Of a stretch of 53,679 nucleotides of DNA, positions 3,079-51,726 are shown piece by piece. Within the stretch, counting starts at the first letter, position 1. The number at the start of each line of letters is the position of its first letter. The stretch spans positions 1 through 53,679 of the forward strand of contig WGAM01000148.1 in NCBI GenBank assembly GCA_015494795.1, written 5' to 3'. Origin of the DNA: Campylobacterota bacterium. Its GTDB lineage: Bacteria; Campylobacterota; Campylobacteria; Campylobacterales; Sulfurovaceae. Position numbers and translations under genes: made by a program. The notes under the pieces are model-generated. The model saw only the letters and a program-made list of their open reading frames with translations. It searched no databases and was not told the origin of the DNA.

Positions 3079-4296
3079 ATGAGTTATATAAGATTTTTTT
3101 TTCTTATCTATATAGTACTATTTAATAGTGGCTGTATAAAAAAGGAGGATAGGGGGGTTACTCCTCCAAAAGAGCGTATAGTCTATGTTAATAGACAACC
3201 AGTCAACTGTGCAACAACTATTCATACTCCAACTCCTACACCTTTAATTATAGAAGATAGACAACATATAAATAGTAATAGACCTATGATTAATAGACCT
3301 AGATTTAATTCTGGATTTGATATTAATAGTATCTCTAGTCCATATTTAGGTGGAGCTTATGCTAATAATTATCAACTTAAGCAATTTATAGAAGAGATGG
3401 TATCTAAACATGGATTTAGAAGAGATTATCTATATGGAGTTTTTTCCACTGTAAATAGAGATACGCTATCTTTAAAAAAGTATAATGTTTATGGTAAATC
3501 ACATAAAAAACAGAAAGCAAATTCTGTTGGTTCATGGGACAGATATCCAAAGTTTGTAACTGCTGATAGGGTAGTAAATGGAGTAAGATTTTGGAGAGCT
3601 AATAGGTATTATCTTGAAAAAGCTGCATATATATATCATGTAGCTCCTGAGTATATTGTTGGTATTATTGGAGTTGAGACAAATTTTGGTAGAGATACGG
3701 GTAAACATAGACTCTTAGATGCCTTAACATCTCTCTCACTAGAGTATAAAAAGCGTTCAAAATTTTTTAGAAAAGAGTTAGAAGAGTATCTACTACTTAC
3801 AAGAGAGCAGAGATTAAATCCACTTGTTATTAGAGGCTCTTATGGGGGGGCTTTTGGAATAGTGCAATTTATGCCTGATTCATTTAGAACCTATGCAGTT
3901 GATTTTGATGGAGATGGGGTAAAAAATCTATTTGACCCAGCTGATGCAATTGGAAGTACTGCTAACTTTTTTGTTAAAAAGGGTAAGTGGAACCCAAACA
4001 TTCCTGTGGCTATGAGAGTCTTATATAATAAAAAGAGATTTAATATACTTCCAACAGGATATAAAACAGAATATTCACAAAGTTATCTTAAATCTTTAGG
4101 AATGAGACCAACAAGTAATTTTTATGGATATAGAGGTCCTGTATCTCTTATAAAGCTTAGTAAATATGATAGAGATGAGTTGTGGTGGGGTACAAAAAAT
4201 TTCTATGCAATTGCTAGATATAATCCAAGAGATTACTATATTATGTCTGTTCATCTATTAGCTCAAGCTGTTCGTAAAAGCTATTATAGAAGATAA
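3079..4296 (+). CDS. lytic murein transglycosylase lipoprotein, MltB-like (GH103)
   Basis: Predicted to cleave the MurNAc-GlcNAc bond of peptidoglycan to form 1,6-anhydro ends. The N-terminus is a lipoprotein signal ending LFNSGC, with Cys19 as the lipidated residue, so it is probably anchored in the outer membrane. A variable proline/asparagine-rich linker covers residues 20-110. The catalytic core follows: IIGVETNFGRDTGKHRLLDA with Glu200 as candidate general acid, then GAFGIVQFMPDSF and DFDGDGVKNLFDPADAIGS, all hallmarks of MltB-type enzymes. The start is fixed by AAAGGAG eight bases upstream. It converges on mnmA. Confidence 0.9.
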   Translation: MSYIRFFFLIYIVLFNSGCIKKEDRGVTPPKERIVYVNRQPVNCATTIHTPTPTPLIIEDRQHINSNRPMINRPRFNSGFDINSISSPYLGGAYANNYQLKQFIEEMVSKHGFRRDYLYGVFSTVNRDTLSLKKYNVYGKSHKKQKANSVGSWDRYPKFVTADRVVNGVRFWRANRYYLEKAAYIYHVAPEYIVGIIGVETNFGRDTGKHRLLDALTSLSLEYKKRSKFFRKELEEYLLLTREQRLNPLVIRGSYGGAFGIVQFMPDSFRTYAVDFDGDGVKNLFDPADAIGSTANFFVKKGKWNPNIPVAMRVLYNKKRFNILPTGYKTEYSQSYLKSLGMRPTSNFYGYRGPVSLIKLSKYDRDELWWGTKNFYAIARYNPRDYYIMSVHLLAQAVRKSYYRR

Positions 4297-4306
4297 TATT
4301 TATCTT
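4290..4306. terminator. weak hairpin between converging genes
   Basis: AAGATAA-TAT-TTATCTT is a perfect 7-bp AT-rich stem overlapping the stop codon of the transglycosylase gene. There is no GC core and no clean T-run, so termination is uncertain. Confidence 0.3.
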
Positions 4307-4318
4307 ATCTTCCTATAA

Positions 4319-5338
4319 TTAATAGATAACTCCTGAACCAAGAACTCTATCCTTATCATAAAATACAGCTATCTGTCCAAATGCTAATCCATAAACAGGT
4401 TCAGTAAGCTCTACAAAACCTATATTATTATCTATCTTAACACTACACTCAATAGCTCTTGTTCTATATCTTACCTTTACAGAGGCTTTAAAATCTTTTA
4501 AATCCTCAAACATATTTATATTTTTAATACTAAAATTTCTTACCTCTAGCTCATCTCTTTTACCAACTACTATCTGATTACTCTCTGGTTTAATAGCTAA
4601 AACAAAGTGCGGGTCATGAGCTCCCTCTACTCTAAATCCTCTTCTCTTTCCTATAGTATAGTGCATATAGCCTTTATGAGTTCCAACCACCTCCCCTTTA
4701 GAGTCTATAACCTCTCCTATATTATCTATATTCATATGTCTCTCTAATATTTCAGTATAGTTATTCTCTACAAAACATATCTCACTGCTCTCTTTTTGAG
4801 TTGCAAAATCCTTTAGGGGTTTTATCTTTGAAGCGAATGCTTTAACATCATCTTTTATCCATGAGCCTAGAGGAAATATGAGTTTTGGAAGTATCTCTTT
4901 TTTTACCTGTGCTACAAAATAGCTCTGGTCTTTACTCTTATCTTCTGCTATATAGAAAAACTCTCCATCACACTTAAGATAGTGACCTGTTGCAACTTTA
5001 TCAATTCCTAAAGAGTTAGCAAACTCAACCATTTTACCAAATTTAATAGTTCTATTACAGATTACACATGGATTTGGAGTAAGTCCACTTCTATATGTAT
5101 CTACAAAGTAGTCATATACTTCATTTTTAAACTCTTTTGATAAATCAAGAAAATGGACATCTATATCTAAATATTTTGCTACTCTCTCTACTTTTTTAAA
5201 ATTCTCCTCATGATACCCCTCTTTATCATGAAGTTTCATATATACTCCTATAACCTCATAACCTTCTTTTTGCAATAGTATAGCTGTAACAGTTGAATCA
5301 ACTCCACCACTCATACCTACTAAAACTTTTCTACTCAC
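4319..5338 (-). CDS. mnmA: tRNA-specific 2-thiouridylase MnmA
   Basis: MnmA adenylates U34 of tRNA-Lys, tRNA-Glu and tRNA-Gln and transfers sulfur to it, giving s2U34. The PP-loop SGGVDST is at residues 10-16. The catalytic pair is visible as Cys91 in NPCVICN and Cys188 in SSEICF, corresponding to the two conserved cysteines of the E. coli enzyme. YTIGKRRGF and the C-terminal GQIAVFYD segment are standard. The length of 339 is normal for Campylobacterota. The start overlaps the end of folK by four bases (ATGA type), so translation is probably coupled. Confidence 0.96.
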
Positions 5339-5865
5339 TTTTTACCTCTCTTTTTAAGATAGATATATTTTACATAAGAAGATTTCATATAACTCATAGG
5401 AGTTAATACAGACTCTCTCTCTCTCCATGAGCGATGAGGTAAGATTAACTCTTTAGTGTTTATAGTAATATCTTCATAAAAAATCATATCAATATCTAGT
5501 GTTCTAGGTGCGTCTTGAAAGGAACGCTTTCTGCTAAATTTTTTTTCTAAATGGAGAATATATCGTAAAAGTGCTTTAGGTTTTAAACATGTTTTCACAT
5601 AAATTAGTGAGTTATGAAAATATCTCTGATTTAAATATCCAAATGGTGGATTTTTAAGAGTTGGTGCTGTCTCAATCATCTCAATATATGGAGATTTTTG
5701 TAAAAATATAAAGAGATGATTAAATCGTCTTCTCACATCTCCAATATTACCACCAATTCCAAGTAGTGCTTTATATCTTAATCTACTATTTAACTCTACT
5801 CTTTTTATATAGGGGTAGTATCTATTAAAATATAGAGTATTATCTTTATCTAATTTTCTAGTCAA
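5335..5865 (-). CDS. folK: 2-amino-4-hydroxy-6-hydroxymethyldihydropteridine diphosphokinase
   Basis: FolK transfers pyrophosphate from ATP to the pterin alcohol, the step before dihydropteroate synthase in folate synthesis. The signature [12 protein letters not shown] contains the metal-binding DxD pair, and [15 protein letters not shown] marks the start of the core fold at about residue 34. About 30 residues precede the core; I believe such an extension occurs in other Campylobacterota FolK proteins. The gene overlaps znuB by eight bases upstream and mnmA by four bases downstream, placing a folate gene inside a metal-transport and tRNA-modification string. The regulatory logic is not evident. 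Confidence 0.93.
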
Positions 5866-6664
5866 ATTTTAACTTCTGATATATTAAAAATATGGATAGA
5901 CAAAAAGCAGATATTAAAATAATAGATGCACCCGAAGAGATATTATATATATATGATACAATCAAACCTAAAATTGTAAAAATAGATGAGAATATACTAG
6001 AGAGTATCATCATCATATAGAGTGTATTTGATAACTTTTCAGCAATATATATAGGAATTGTAAGTAGTGCAATTACTAGAATAAGTCCTACCACTTTAAT
6101 AGCAACTACTACAGAGAGAGCTGATAGTACTAAAATTAGAGTATAGTAAAATCTAACATTAATTCCCCTAAGTTTAGCATACTCCATATCATAAGATACT
6201 GCTAATATCTCTCTATATCTTAGTGTAACTATTAAGATAGTAGATATTAAGAGTATTATCATATAGTATAAATCACTATGACTTACAGATAATATTGAGC
6301 CAAATAGATAACTCATTAAATCACCCTTATATCCAGATGTTAAATCTATAAATACAACCCCTAAAGCCATACCAACAGCCCACATTAAACCAATAAAGGT
6401 ATCAACTCTATCTCTATGGTTAAGTGTAATAGAGGCGATTATTAGTGCAGAGATAACAGCAAATAGAGAAGCACCTAAAAAGATTGGAAATCCTAAAAAT
6501 ATAGCAAGTCCAATTCCACCATAAGAGGTATGTGCTATTCCTCCTGCTAGAAATACCATTCTATTAACAACAATTAGTGAGCCAATTATTCCTGAAGCAA
6601 TAGAGACTAAAATCCCTGCAATAAGAGCATTTTGAATAAATTCATAAGATAGAGCCTCTATCAT
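5858..6664 (-). CDS. znuB: zinc/manganese-type ABC transporter permease (ZnuB family)
   Basis: An integral membrane protein of 268 residues with about eight hydrophobic helices, of the ABC-3 permease family that imports Zn2+ or Mn2+ with a periplasmic binding protein. The motifs GGIAHTSYGGIGLAIFLG (about residue 41) and VVAIKVVGLILVIALLTIP (about residue 187) are typical of ZnuB/MntB. The start overlaps the stop of the ATPase gene by four bases. No znuA-type binding protein is in the window, so the metal cannot be assigned; ZnuB is the closest label. Confidence 0.85.
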   Translation of the reverse strand: MIEALSYEFIQNALIAGILVSIASGIIGSLIVVNRMVFLAGGIAHTSYGGIGLAIFLGFPIFLGASLFAVISALIIASITLNHRDRVDTFIGLMWAVGMALGVVFIDLTSGYKGDLMSYLFGSILSVSHSDLYYMIILLISTILIVTLRYREILAVSYDMEYAKLRGINVRFYYTLILVLSALSVVVAIKVVGLILVIALLTIPIYIAEKLSNTLYMMMILSSIFSSIFTILGLIVSYIYNISSGASIILISAFCLSIFLIYQKLKFD

Positions 6665-7398
6665 ATACTATCACCTTTTAATATATGAAATAGTTCAACT
6701 TCACAAAAGTGTCCTGCCATATTTAATTTCTCTTTCTCTTTTTTATTTAGTTTATGATATGTTAGTCTCTTGTTTATATGAACTATTTTATTGGCATACT
6801 CTAATACAATAGATATATCATGACTAACTACAATTATTGTAATATCTCTATTTAGATTTTTTAGTAGTTCATATATCTTTTTCTGTCCATCAATATCTAT
6901 ACTAGCAGTTGGTTCATCTAAAATTAAAATCTTAGGATTTGCACATAAAGCTCTTGCTATCATAACTCTCTGTCTCTGCCCACCTGATAGCTCACCTATC
7001 TTCTTTTGAGCAAACTTCTCCATTCCAACCTGTGCTAATGAACCCATAGCACACATAACCTCATCTTTTCCATATCCAAATATAGCTCTTTTAGTTCCAA
7101 TATGTCCCATAAGTACAACCTCAATAACTTTAATGGGAAAATTGGTATTTATATTTGTATTTTGTGGAACATATCCTATTTTAGATAGATTTTTTTTAGG
7201 TATCTCTCCAAAAGTTTTAATAATACCCTTTTGAGTTGGGATTAGTCCTAATATTAATTTAAGAAGTGTCGATTTTCCTCCACCATTAGGTCCAATAATA
7301 GCAAGAAAATCTCTACTCTCTATCTCTAAATTTATATCTTCTAAAATAGTATGCTTATTATAGGCAAAAGATAGATTTTTTATCTCAATTATAGGGAT
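6661..7398 (-). CDS. znuC: metal ABC transporter ATP-binding protein (ZnuC family), no canonical start codon
   Basis: A complete ABC ATPase of about 245 residues that powers the adjacent ZnuB permease. Read on the minus strand it shows IEIKNLSFAYNKHTILEDIN, Walker A GPNGGGKST, Q-loop VGYVPQN-type sequence, signature LSGGQRQRV, Walker B ILILDEPTASID and the H-loop VSHD. The frame is unbroken, yet the first ATG is internal (7110). At the expected beginning there is a strong AAAAGGAGG followed by ATC (7398-7396, seven bases away) and ATA (7392-7390), with no ATG, GTG or TTG back to an upstream stop. Initiation is therefore at a non-standard codon, or a single-base change removed the ATG. I favour ATC by spacing; ATA is also possible. 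Confidence 0.85.
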   Translation of the reverse strand: MPIIEIKNLSFAYNKHTILEDINLEIESRDFLAIIGPNGGGKSTLLKLILGLIPTQKGIIKTFGEIPKKNLSKIGYVPQNTNINTNFPIKVIEVVLMGHIGTKRAIFGYGKDEVMCAMGSLAQVGMEKFAQKKIGELSGGQRQRVMIARALCANPKILILDEPTASIDIDGQKKIYELLKNLNRDITIIVVSHDISIVLEYANKIVHINKRLTYHKLNKKEKEKLNMAGHFCEVELFHILKGDSI

Positions 7399-16722: not shown

Positions 16723-17196
16723 TTATTTTGTTAATTGTTTGCAACCAGTACTATTATTATTATCTGTTATTGAGCTATCACACTCAAATTTGCCATTAAC
16801 TATCTCAAAATAGACTTTACCTAAAGATGAGTCAAATATATATTGGTCTCTACCATTTTTTCCTGTTCCAGCACTAAATGACCACTTATCTTTCCCATTT
16901 TCAGAGAGTATTGGATACTCTAAAACTGATGGCAGAGTTTCATTGTTATCAAAATGTCCAAATACATGTGTAGCTCCACCAACTGCTCTTATTGGAGTAA
17001 AATCTCCTCTTAAAATTCTCTTCTGTCTCTCCATTGCTAAAGCATTTCTAACTGTGGCTACTGTTGTTCTAGCCTTTGTAATAACAGCATCATCTCTAGT
17101 AGCAGATAGTCGTGGGATTGCAACCCCTGCTAATATACCAATAATAACTATAACAAAAATCAACTCTACCATTGTAAATGCTCTTTTAAAATTCAT
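16723..17196 (-). CDS. type IV pilin-like / pseudopilin protein (copy 1)
   Basis: A 157-residue protein with a class III (prepilin) signal: a short basic leader MNFKRA, then FTMVELIFVIVIIGILAGVA, in which the conserved glutamate is residue 5 of the mature protein. The residue before the cleavage site is Ala rather than the usual Gly. The C-terminal half is predicted globular and ends with a Cys pair about 14 residues apart, typical of a pilin D-region disulfide. It is the first of three tandem paralogues sharing the LSATRDDA element after the helix. It may build a type II-like or type IV pilus filament; no secretion ATPase or prepilin peptidase is nearby. Confidence 0.85.
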   Translation of the reverse strand: MNFKRAFTMVELIFVIVIIGILAGVAIPRLSATRDDAVITKARTTVATVRNALAMERQKRILRGDFTPIRAVGGATHVFGHFDNNETLPSVLEYPILSENGKDKWSFSAGTGKNGRDQYIFDSSLGKVYFEIVNGKFECDSSITDNNNSTGCKQLTK

Positions 17197-17216
17197 ATTT
17201 AATCCTTTATATAATA

Positions 17217-17672
17217 TTAGTAGTTTACTAAATTTCCAGCTATTGTAAAAGATGTATTGTTATCTGGAACTAATCTCTTTACCCCTTTACATATTGCTGT
17301 ATCTCCTGCTCCATTTGTAATAGTTAATTTTATATTAGATATATCGGAGTCATCAATTGTTATTTTTTTGCATACACTGCTATTATCATCAGTATCAACT
17401 ATATCAATTACCTTATTATTAACTAAGACAAAATTTGATAAATCTCTTAAGGTATTAGATATTTTTATCATCTCATTGGTAGTGGTTGGAACTCTATTAT
17501 TTGCTAAAATAGCAGAAGATATTTCTGACTTTACACTCTGAATAGCCTTAGCTAAAATAGATGCCTTTGCATCATCTCTAGTTGCAGATAACTTTGGAAT
17601 TGCAACAGAAGCTAAAATACCAATAATAACAATAACAAATATTAGCTCTATCATAGTAAATGCTTTTTTCAT
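17217..17672 (-). CDS. type IV pilin-like / pseudopilin protein (copy 2)
   Basis: A 151-residue prepilin-like protein, leader MKKA followed by FTMIELIFVIVIIGILASVA, again with Ala at the -1 position. Following the helix is IPKLSATRDDAKASILAKAI, almost the same as in copy 3. Two cysteines near the C-terminus (CKKITIDDSD and TAICKGVKRL) probably form the D-region loop. The final segment LVPDNNTSFTIAGNLVNY is homologous to that of copy 3, so these two are close paralogues. It begins 98 bases after copy 3 ends. Confidence 0.85.
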   Translation of the reverse strand: MKKAFTMIELIFVIVIIGILASVAIPKLSATRDDAKASILAKAIQSVKSEISSAILANNRVPTTTNEMIKISNTLRDLSNFVLVNNKVIDIVDTDDNSSVCKKITIDDSDISNIKLTITNGAGDTAICKGVKRLVPDNNTSFTIAGNLVNY

Positions 17673-17730
17673 ATATTTTTAATCTTTGTGGGTATTTTCT
17701 ATATTTAATAATATTGATATTACTAAATAT

Positions 17731-17762
17731 AAAAAATAGCCCTAAGCCATATTTGACTTAGG
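17731..17762 (-). terminator. rho-independent terminator after pseudopilin copy 3
   Basis: On the minus strand CCTAAG...CTTAGG form a stem (17762-17741, loop of about 10), followed by GGCTATTTTTT. A hairpin with a T-run directly downstream of copy 3 suggests partial termination between the paralogues. Confidence 0.6.
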
Positions 17763-17770
17763 ATTATATA

Positions 17771-18283
17771 TTAATATGTTACTTGCGTACCACCAACAGT
17801 AATATTTGTATCTGGAACTAAAGCATCAACTCCTTTACATATAGCACTTGCACCACCTGTTGAGGCTATACCAATAACTACATTACCTGTATTTTTATTT
17901 CCATAAATAGTTAATGTTTTACAATTATTTCCACTATCTTTATCTATAAATGTAATAACGGATGAGTTCACATCTGCAGATGTAATATTTGCATCACCAC
18001 TTATTATAGCTTCTGCAATAGTATTTGAGTAGTCTTTAATTGCATTCTCAATATTAGGTGCATCATTTGGAACATTATTTGTAGCAATAATTCTTGAGGA
18101 TAGTTCACTTTTTGCTGTCTGAATAGCATTTGCCATTTTAGAAATCTTAGCATCATCTCTAGTTGCTGCTAATTTAGGAATTGCTACTGATGCTAAAATA
18201 CCAATAATTACAATAACAAAGATTAACTCAATCATTGTAAAACCACTTCTCATACTTGGTTGATTATTAAGTCTGTTTTCCAT
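17771..18283 (-). CDS. type IV pilin-like / pseudopilin protein (copy 3)
   Basis: A 170-residue prepilin-like protein with a longer leader (about 14 residues) ending SG, then FTMIELIFVIVIIGILASVA. This copy has the canonical Gly before the cleavage site. The C-terminal cysteines in NCKTLTIYG and SAICKGVDAL match those of copy 2, and the end LVPDTNITVGGTQVTY aligns with it. It is first in the direction of transcription and is followed by a terminator-like hairpin, so it may be the most highly expressed subunit. Whether it is a major pilin or a pseudopilin cannot be decided here. Confidence 0.87.
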   Translation of the reverse strand: MENRLNNQPSMRSGFTMIELIFVIVIIGILASVAIPKLAATRDDAKISKMANAIQTAKSELSSRIIATNNVPNDAPNIENAIKDYSNTIAEAIISGDANITSADVNSSVITFIDKDSGNNCKTLTIYGNKNTGNVVIGIASTGGASAICKGVDALVPDTNITVGGTQVTY

Positions 18284-49586: not shown

Positions 49587-49662
49587 TAAATATAAAAAAG
49601 ACACTTTAAAGACATATACTTATATTACAATTTAAATCTACAATTAAAAACAAGGAAAAGTC

Positions 49663-51696
49663 ATGAGAATTAATTTTAAATATTGTATATTAACATTATT
49701 TGTTTTAGCCCTAACAGCTTGTCAAAATAGTCCAACAGTAAATAAAGGTATATCTATCTCTTCATCATCTGCAAAGGTGAAAGATATAAAAGAGCCACTG
49801 ACTGTAATTGGTGGAGAGCTTAGTTTTGATTTTGTAAATAGTATAGATAGTAACTATAAACTATATGGAGTAAAATTTAATCCTAAAAATAGTACTATTG
49901 TAGCTTATGGAGATAGTAGTATTATTACTATATATAATTTAGATTTAAAACCTATTGGCTCAATTGAGAGTAAAAATGATGAGGTAAAAGCGTTAGATAT
50001 TAGTAGTGATGGCTCATATCTTGCCTGTAGTGGAGATGATGGATATGTTGAAGTTTGGGATTTAAATAGCTATAATCTTGTAAATAGAATGAGAAGTAGC
50101 TCAAATGATATATTAGCTATTGCAATTAGTTCCGATAATAAAAAAGTAGCTAGTGGTGGAGATGATAAGGTTATTGATATTTGGAATATTAAATCAGGAG
50201 AACAGATAGCAAAACTAGAGGGTCATCGAGATACTATTACTAATATAGGTTTTATAGATTATAATAGAAAGATAGTCTCAACAGCAGAAGATAAAAAGGT
50301 AAAAATATGGGATATTTTACGAAAAAAAGAGATTTATTCATATTTAGCTCCATCAAATGAGTATGGAGATATAAAAGTAGCAAAATCATTTGATGACTAT
50401 ACTATATTAGGACTTACAGAGGTAGAGAGTGCAGAGGGGAACTATAGAAGAAGAAATGGACCACCTGTATGGAAATACACAATTAAATTTAAAGATAACC
50501 AAGGAAATACTCTAAAAGAGTTTAATCAACATAGAGAACCGATTACAGATATTGCAGTAGCAGGGAATAGAGCCTATATGGCAACCTCTTCAGAAGATAA
50601 GACTATTAGATTATGGGATTTAGAGAAAAAACGACACATTACAAATATTGTATTAAAAGATAGAGGATATAGTGTTAACATTAATAAATCTGGACATCTA
50701 TTAGTTGGATTAGAGGGAAAATATAGAATTAAACTCTTTGAGATAAAAAATAGTTATGAGCCAACTCTTAGCTCATCTAGTAGTTCATCCTCTAAAATAT
50801 CCACTACCAATCAAAATGCTATCTCCTCATGGTATCGTAAAGAGTATGCTATTGTTGTAGGTATTGACCACTATAAAAGATTATCCCTTCCACGACTTAG
50901 TAATGCAGTAAATGATGCTAGAAGTGTAGCAGAACTTTTACGAAAAAGAGGATTTGAGGTTATTGAGTTATATAATGAGAATGCTACAAAAGAGAGAATA
51001 TTAGATGCTCTTAAAAAGATAAAACAGACATCAACAAGTCAAGATGCAACACTCTTCTACTTTGCAGGACATGGAGATGGTGTATCTGGACATAATGGTG
51101 TAAGAGAGGGTTATATATTGCCGTATGATTTTAATGCAGACCTAAATAATCCAAATGCTGATGTAATGTATTATGATAAATCGGCTATTAGTATAAGCTC
51201 TCTTGTTATGTACACAAGAGATACAAAGGCTAAACATATTGGTATTATTTTAGATTCATGCTTCTCTGGACTTGCAATGGATAGCAAATATGCAAAAAAA
51301 TCTATACCATCATCATCTGCTAAAGAGTTAGATAGAGTTGAGTATGATACTAAAACTCGTTCAGTTAGAATAAGACCAACTAAAGAGTCTGTTGTAACAA
51401 ATGGTAGTAGCTCATCTTCTTCATCAAATATATTTAAAGATTTACTAAATAAAAAATCAATTAATATCTTAACAGCAGGAGATGACCAACCAGTATCAGA
51501 TGGCTCTAACCACTCCCCATTTACACAAGCTCTTCTAAAAGCATTAGGAGAAGATGGAACTAAAAAAGGCTATATTAGATTTACAACTCTTGCTGATTAT
51601 ATTAGAAAATATGTTGAAGAGAAAACAGGAGATAGACAGAAACCCCAATATAAAAATGAGAGTTTAGATGGAGGTGATTTTATATTTAAAATCTAA
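49663..51696 (+). CDS. lipoprotein with WD40 repeats and caspase-like (C14) protease domain
   Basis: A 677-residue exported protein. The signal peptide ends LALTAC, with Cys20 lipidated and Gln at +2, so an outer-membrane anchor is likely. Residues 50-365 form about six or seven WD40 blades (VWDLN, IWNIK, IWDIL and LWDLE endings). A serine-rich linker (about 367-385) leads to a caspase fold: YAIVVGIDHYKRLSLPRLSN, TLFYFAGHGDG with catalytic His470, and GIILDSCFSGLA with catalytic Cys533. Both active residues are intact. A second Ser-rich insert lies near 583-594, and GDGSNHSPFTQALL-type sequence ends the domain. It is probably a periplasm-facing orthocaspase. Substrate and trigger are unknown. 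It has its own promoter region and a terminator. Confidence 0.9.
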   Translation: MRINFKYCILTLFVLALTACQNSPTVNKGISISSSSAKVKDIKEPLTVIGGELSFDFVNSIDSNYKLYGVKFNPKNSTIVAYGDSSIITIYNLDLKPIGSIESKNDEVKALDISSDGSYLACSGDDGYVEVWDLNSYNLVNRMRSSSNDILAIAISSDNKKVASGGDDKVIDIWNIKSGEQIAKLEGHRDTITNIGFIDYNRKIVSTAEDKKVKIWDILRKKEIYSYLAPSNEYGDIKVAKSFDDYTILGLTEVESAEGNYRRRNGPPVWKYTIKFKDNQGNTLKEFNQHREPITDIAVAGNRAYMATSSEDKTIRLWDLEKKRHITNIVLKDRGYSVNINKSGHLLVGLEGKYRIKLFEIKNSYEPTLSSSSSSSSKISTTNQNAISSWYRKEYAIVVGIDHYKRLSLPRLSNAVNDARSVAELLRKRGFEVIELYNENATKERILDALKKIKQTSTSQDATLFYFAGHGDGVSGHNGVREGYILPYDFNADLNNPNADVMYYDKSAISISSLVMYTRDTKAKHIGIILDSCFSGLAMDSKYAKKSIPSSSAKELDRVEYDTKTRSVRIRPTKESVVTNGSSSSSSSNIFKDLLNKKSINILTAGDDQPVSDGSNHSPFTQALLKALGEDGTKKGYIRFTTLADYIRKYVEEKTGDRQKPQYKNESLDGGDFIFKI

Positions 51697-51702
51697 CTAT
51701 AG

Positions 51703-51720
51703 AGAGCAACTTTTTGCTCT
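51703..51720. terminator. bidirectional terminator between the caspase and TrkA genes
   Basis: AGAGCAA-CTTT-TTGCTCT, a 7-bp stem with a 4-base loop, followed by TCTCTTCTATTT on the plus strand. It lies in the 30-base gap of converging genes. Confidence 0.6.
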
Positions 51721-51726
51721 TCTCTT

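Follow-up and report, generated by a model that had tools for sequence, protein, structure and literature searches.

A predicted WD40-caspase lipoprotein of a Sulfurovum-type genus is usually encoded in an apparently undescribed envelope gene cluster

We analysed a stretch of 53,679 nucleotides from a Campylobacterota bacterium of the Sulfurovaceae (the window), which carries a gene combining a predicted lipoprotein signal, a WD40 propeller and a caspase domain. In relatives from the same genus, the gene is usually found within a conserved envelope cluster, together with a second caspase and a CsgG-like lipoprotein, an arrangement that is apparently undescribed. The literature, covered in part, yielded no description of a cluster of two caspase lipoproteins and a CsgG-fold lipoprotein, nor of a lipidated WD40-caspase at the outer membrane. 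The parts themselves are known already, and among exported C14 proteins the lipidated WD40-caspase counts as a variant.

The gene adjoins a three-gene set, divergently or one gene away, in five relatives whose contigs are long (G016, G017, G009, G019 and G025). This set encodes a caspase-DUF4384 lipoprotein of about 500 amino acids, a DUF4384 lipoprotein and a CsgG-fold lipoprotein of 326 amino acids; the DUF4384 matches of the cluster proteins lie just under the Pfam cut-off. In four of these five, the gene before the WD40-caspase encodes a beta-barrel-like (outer membrane) protein. Contig breaks in two further genomes (G006 and G029) fit the same gene order and are consistent with the cluster, while in G005 the three-gene set is located away from the WD40-caspase. 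The 326-residue lipoprotein has the fold of CsgG (VIA gave Z 15.6 to 4uv2, with 166 residues superposed at 3.2 Å, and Foldseek 2.1e-7 to CsgG, the exporter of curli), and its C-terminal part resembles peptidoglycan-binding domains (Z 9.6). Against the Pfam CsgG profile it reached an E value of only 0.086, and a PDB sequence search with a CsgG-like profile returned nothing relevant. That is, the likeness to CsgG is seen by fold alone.

Within the genus the WD40-caspase is patchy, occurring in 9 of 34 genomes (the window's included). A close CsgG-like gene (E<1e-100) was found in all nine of these and in 10 of the 34 overall. The chance of such co-occurrence is 2e-7 if genomes are taken as independent, a value that is uncorrected for kinship and overstates the case because the genomes are related. 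Near the caspase cluster of three genomes we also observed a lipoprotein family that starts with CGSxSSxEAKELL and has no Pfam match (Table 1).

Table 1. Location of the WD40-caspase gene, its parts and related loci (window coordinates unless a locus is named; G000 is the window's genome)
Feature	Position	Strand	Basis
5' region, promoter and Shine-Dalgarno AAGGAAAA, common to other gene copies	49593..49662	+	alignment
WD40-caspase lipoprotein CDS, 677 aa	49663..51696	+	ORF call, Pfam, motif reading, orthologue alignment
Predicted lipoprotein signal peptide, residues 1-19	49663..49719	+	n-region MRINFK, hydrophobic core, lipobox
Cys20, predicted lipidated, Gln at +2	49720..49722	+	LTAC followed by QN
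WD40 beta-propeller, residues ~53-363	49819..50751	+	PF00400, AF2 model, Foldseek
Caspase (Peptidase_C14) domain, residues 394-668	50842..51666	+	PF00656 and sequence match to GSU0716 (3bij)
Asp418, predicted S1-pocket acid (~Asp95 of T. brucei MCA2)	50914..50916	+	motif; invariant in 8 sequences
Catalytic His470, in YFAGHG	51070..51072	+	invariant: orthologue alignment and comparison with G049/G164 proteins
Asp531, predicted S1-pocket acid, in DSCFSG (~Asp211 of MCA2)	51253..51255	+	motif; invariant in 8 sequences
Catalytic Cys533, in DSCFSG	51259..51261	+	invariant: orthologue alignment and comparison with G049/G164 proteins
Ser-rich variable p20-p10 linker with Lys/Arg, residues ~546-590	51298..51432	+	dN, pLDDT <50
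Weak terminator-like hairpin between convergent genes	51702..51721	+	8 pairs, 3 G-C, broken T run
Caspase-DUF4384, DUF4384 and CsgG-fold/PG-binding-like lipoproteins in a row	L082 (G000:C114) 3711-6889	minus	
Broken 5' WD40-caspase copy (~40 codons and upstream)	L092 (G000:C36) 1465-1661	minus	
CGSxSSxEAKELL lipoproteins	L082 9743-11362; L083 1386-2885; L081 1977-3062		

The gene starts with ATG, and its single open reading frame holds both a WD40 propeller and a caspase domain, as first annotated, each far above the Pfam cut-off. PF00400 matched in four stretches (E = 5e-31), and PF00656 scored 90.3 bits against a curated cut-off of 21.4 (E = 2e-25). The caspase domain also matched the sequence of GSU0716 (6.6e-7), and the PADLOC 'caspase' model matched the protein itself; the cut-off of the NCBIfam family caspase_w_EACC1 was not reached (70.1 versus 140 bits). 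By sequence, the protein is an orthocaspase-like member of peptidase family C14. For the full-length protein, AF2 gave only a fair model (mean pLDDT 59.9), so that the active-site geometry was modelled without confidence. Propeller residues 61–190 reached pLDDT values of 84–95 and residues 228–305 stayed below 50. Foldseek with this model retrieved the WD40 domain 5yzv and WDR5 (E ~1e-20). Several WD repeats are thus modelled as a propeller, part of which is poor.

The lipobox LTAC with Gln at +2, read in the initial annotation, was recovered at residues 17–20, after a short basic n-region and a hydrophobic core. Applied to all ORFs of at least 90 amino acids in the window, the same rule called a lipobox for this gene only, and its remaining positive calls were ORFs with clear hydrophobic stretches. 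In all seven orthologues with a readable N-terminus, CQN directly follows the hydrophobic core, in agreement with the predicted lipidated export, and it stays constant while the signal otherwise diverges (dN 0.15–0.52 for residues 1–45 versus 0.06–0.25 overall). The genome encodes LspA and a match to LolA, along with an Lnt-like gene whose score is below the model cut-off. Given the n- and h-regions, the lipobox with its invariant cysteine and LspA in the genome, the protein is predicted to be a bacterial lipoprotein. Asp at +2 is absent from all 35 genus caspases that have a lipobox, in a phylum for which the rules that sort lipoproteins to one membrane or the other have yet to be established. 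The outer-membrane placement of the protein, like its orientation, activity and substrate, is accordingly tentative.

We found eight orthologues (50–90% identity), all within one Sulfurovum-type genus; beyond it, a contig scan gave only distant WD40/caspase pieces (L041–L044, unused) besides these orthologues. His470 and Cys533, both named at the outset, are present in the expected motifs. Homologues without signal peptide and dyad were sought: the dyad is kept in all eight orthologues, just as CQN is in the seven that can be read. Judged by these residues, the caspase is apparently catalytically competent. The two S1-pocket aspartates were equated with those given for trypanosome MCA2 (PMC6426788) by motif, not by superposed structure. 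Since both are invariant in the eight aligned sequences, cleavage after Arg or Lys is predicted. The ratio dN/dS is about 0.10–0.22 for the whole gene and 0.07–0.08 for p20 in all five pairs computed, by which measure purifying selection on the gene is strong. With eight orthologues at such identities and a low dN/dS, the architecture is not due to chance. The most variable parts are the signal peptide and the p20-p10 linker (linker dN 0.08–0.6 versus 0.03–0.17 for p20), and this linker is a candidate self-cleavage region.

In the window, the gene lies between two upstream neighbours, which we take from our own reading of their sequences to be pdxJ-pdxA, and two convergent TrkA-type potassium genes. 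The initial annotation had described a gene with its own promoter and terminator and no defence genes nearby. The last point is right locally, as PADLOC defence models matched none of the eight neighbours between 44300 and 53677. For the promoter, a sigma-70 consensus scan gave no excess (11 promoters versus 19.4 expected from shuffles), while about 70 bp upstream are conserved with two other loci. The terminator hairpin is there, but it is weak. Isolation holds for the window's genome, but not for the five relatives with the envelope cluster. Block 49593–49778 is 87% identical to contig C36 of the same genome, and from 49595 onward the sequence aligns with the G016 orthologue, homology beginning just past pdxA.

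The cluster of the window's genome is split over three contigs: that of the window, C114 with the three-gene set, and C36 (L092) with the barrel gene. On C36, a broken 5' copy of the WD40-caspase follows the barrel gene, and its frame runs into the end of an lnt-like gene. The genome thus has a single complete copy, separated from the genes that usually accompany it, plus a fragment of the 5' end. That the gene stands alone here is most simply read as the outcome of a genome rearrangement, and this would explain why it looked solitary and equipped with a promoter for itself; it is also possible that C36, a contig of 3.3 kb, was misassembled and the broken copy is an artefact. Elsewhere in the window (16723–18283, minus strand), three consecutive genes have type IV pilin-like N-termini (FTMVELIFVIVIIGIL).

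WD40 caspases had initially been taken as usually cytoplasmic. This does not apply to the genus, where 12 of the 13 readable WD40-caspases are exported (10 with a lipobox). Two WD40-caspases from another family of the order are predicted lipoproteins as well. C14 genes as such occur in 25 of the 34 genus genomes and in 17 of 298 genomes of an even phylum sample (window's genome included). We read the N-termini of 107 genus C14 matches with a simple lipobox/hydrophobic-signal rule. Among the 97 that were intact, 35 had a lipobox, 45 another export signal or anchor and 17 neither, the rule being heuristic and blind to the difference between a cleaved signal and an anchor. The exported classes are poor in cysteine (0.61 and 0.87 per 100 amino acids versus 1.47 without signal), as expected outside the cytoplasm. 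By these signals, exported caspases are the rule in this genus, not the exception.

Caspase homologues with predicted export had already been recorded in surveys of 2012 and 2019. In the former, the 671 prokaryotic caspase homologues included 98 placed at the membrane, for the most part because of an N-terminal helix, possibly a signal peptide, and another 30 assigned to the outside of the cell (PMC3501461); the latter described TAT-like signals on cyanobacterial pseudo-orthocaspases (PMC6426788). The C14 richness of the genus was invisible in 2012, because few homologues were counted in Epsilonproteobacteria (0.01 per 1000 proteins, PMC3501461).

In a tree of C14 domains delimited with the HMM, the WD40-caspase orthologues group together (SH-aLRT 100) and separately from the neighbouring caspase-DUF4384 proteins, which have a clade of their own; deeper joins are unsure. 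The two linked caspases therefore show no sign of having duplicated recently. Export gained just once does not fit this tree, which needs at least 26 changes between lipobox, other signal and none, and 8 between exported and not, with signal classes assigned heuristically. The type of signal thus shifts often. Of the 14 C14 matches in one genus genome (G018; L101, L102 and L100), seven lie on a single 12.6-kb contig; this is an expanded array of exported caspase-like proteins, several of which have no recognisable catalytic Cys motif.

As for function, our leading reading, held at a little under even confidence, is an envelope-tethered processing protease that is specific for basic residues and works with the lipoprotein module. 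The WD40-caspase would be exported by Sec, lipidated at Cys20 and then sorted to the outer membrane. There the propeller would most likely dock a partner or substrate and the protease most likely cut after Arg or Lys, possibly after prior processing in the Ser-rich linker. Its task would be to mature or trim an exported or envelope protein that the linked module handles; it would act in processing, not in cell suicide. We favour maturation or trimming because the usual neighbours encode lipoproteins, a barrel and a CsgG-fold protein and the window neighbours tested are non-defence genes. Against a link to the module speaks that the gene lies away from it in the window's genome and in G005. A bolder version, in which a CsgG-like pore and two lipid-anchored caspases that cut or gate cargo form an undescribed outer-membrane secretion/processing machine of Sulfurovum-type bacteria, we regard as rather unlikely.

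Similarly unlikely, in our view, is an outer-membrane quality-control protease that degrades misfolded envelope proteins and has no tie to secretion. The many different exported C14 proteins of the genus would suit such broad envelope proteolysis, but the gene is patchy and tied to the CsgG-like module. Somewhat less probable still is an effector of envelope stress and cell death, whose propeller would sense periplasmic damage and free the caspase, so that envelope proteins are degraded and the cell is killed or lysed. A caspase fold with a sensor-like WD40 domain would fit, and orthocaspases have been discussed in cyanobacterial cell death (PMC7475262, PMC5756287); yet the eight neighbours tested include no defence genes, the gene is strongly conserved, and its linked genes encode lipoproteins, a CsgG-fold protein and a barrel. 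Cleavage and sorting lie beyond proof by sequence alone, which leaves a slight probability for a cytoplasmic-facing or inner-membrane protein with an uncleaved anchor; the constancy of CQN behind a variable signal in the readable orthologues and the presence of LspA argue against it. Lipoproteins can be surface-exposed, but a surface protease attacking other cells or their proteins is the least probable reading, and in none of the loci examined was a gene for an adhesin, a toxin or predation found linked to it. Predation and programmed death had been proposed initially, and nothing was found that points there; cell death, predation, envelope stress and immunity as roles have no support here.

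Bacterial caspase homologues are mostly discussed as intracellular agents of cell death or immunity. A genus that appears to export most of its caspases, and clusters two of them with a CsgG-fold lipoprotein, suggests that envelope proteolysis is an important use, and the cluster supplies defined genes for testing it.

With orthocaspases and bacterial metacaspase-like C14 proteins (PF00656), the protein shares the C14 domain, the His-Cys dyad and, by motif, two S1 aspartates, and WD40 is a common accessory domain among them (PMC3501461, PMC8283722). It differs in its lipobox and N-terminal propeller, whereas accessory domains of cyanobacterial orthocaspases mostly follow the caspase domain (PMC8283722). 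Predicted exported caspase homologues likewise join a C14 domain to an export signal (PMC3501461, PMC6426788), but those described are largely single-domain proteins or have a changed dyad, in contrast to the lipobox, propeller and intact dyad found here. Unlike PADLOC anti-phage caspase systems, the gene has no partner defence model matching any of its eight neighbours.

The two WD40-caspase lipoproteins of another Campylobacterota family (G049 and G164) resemble ours in lipobox, WD40 repeats, DSCFSG caspase and a neighbouring lipoprotein, but are only 21–23% identical, with a different middle region and no conservation of the Asp418 position. Both are followed by an LPP20-type lipoprotein, and the G049 neighbour has a weak DUF4384 match. 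The pairing of a WD40-caspase with an LPP20-type protein behind it, with a few-base overlap, was seen at three loci in other families of the order (L149 67–3203; L150 491–3648; L151 504–3684); the WD40-caspases of L149 and L150 carry a lipobox, and the LPP20-type protein of L149 a weak DUF4384 match.

The curli export lipoprotein CsgG shares the fold of the linked 326-residue protein, but identity is about 13–16%, the C-terminal peptidoglycan-binding-like part distinguishes the latter, and no curli genes were identified beside it. In G053 (L157 43–2514), a CsgG-like lipoprotein gene lies downstream of an exported protein built from repeats like NAGISVKGKNVKIKKSTIKNETT, possibly a surface-fibre or amyloid-like cargo. 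PorU has a caspase fold (family C25). It removes the export signal of type IX secretion cargo and offers an analogy in working only, as an outer-membrane protease acting on exported proteins (PMC4804311); peptidase family (C25 sortase), phylum and secretion system are different, and we claim no homology. The plasmid records searched contained distant caspases, and a looser parallel is provided by an Azospirillum plasmid, on which a DUF4384 gene, two OmpA-family genes and two caspase genes stand in a row.
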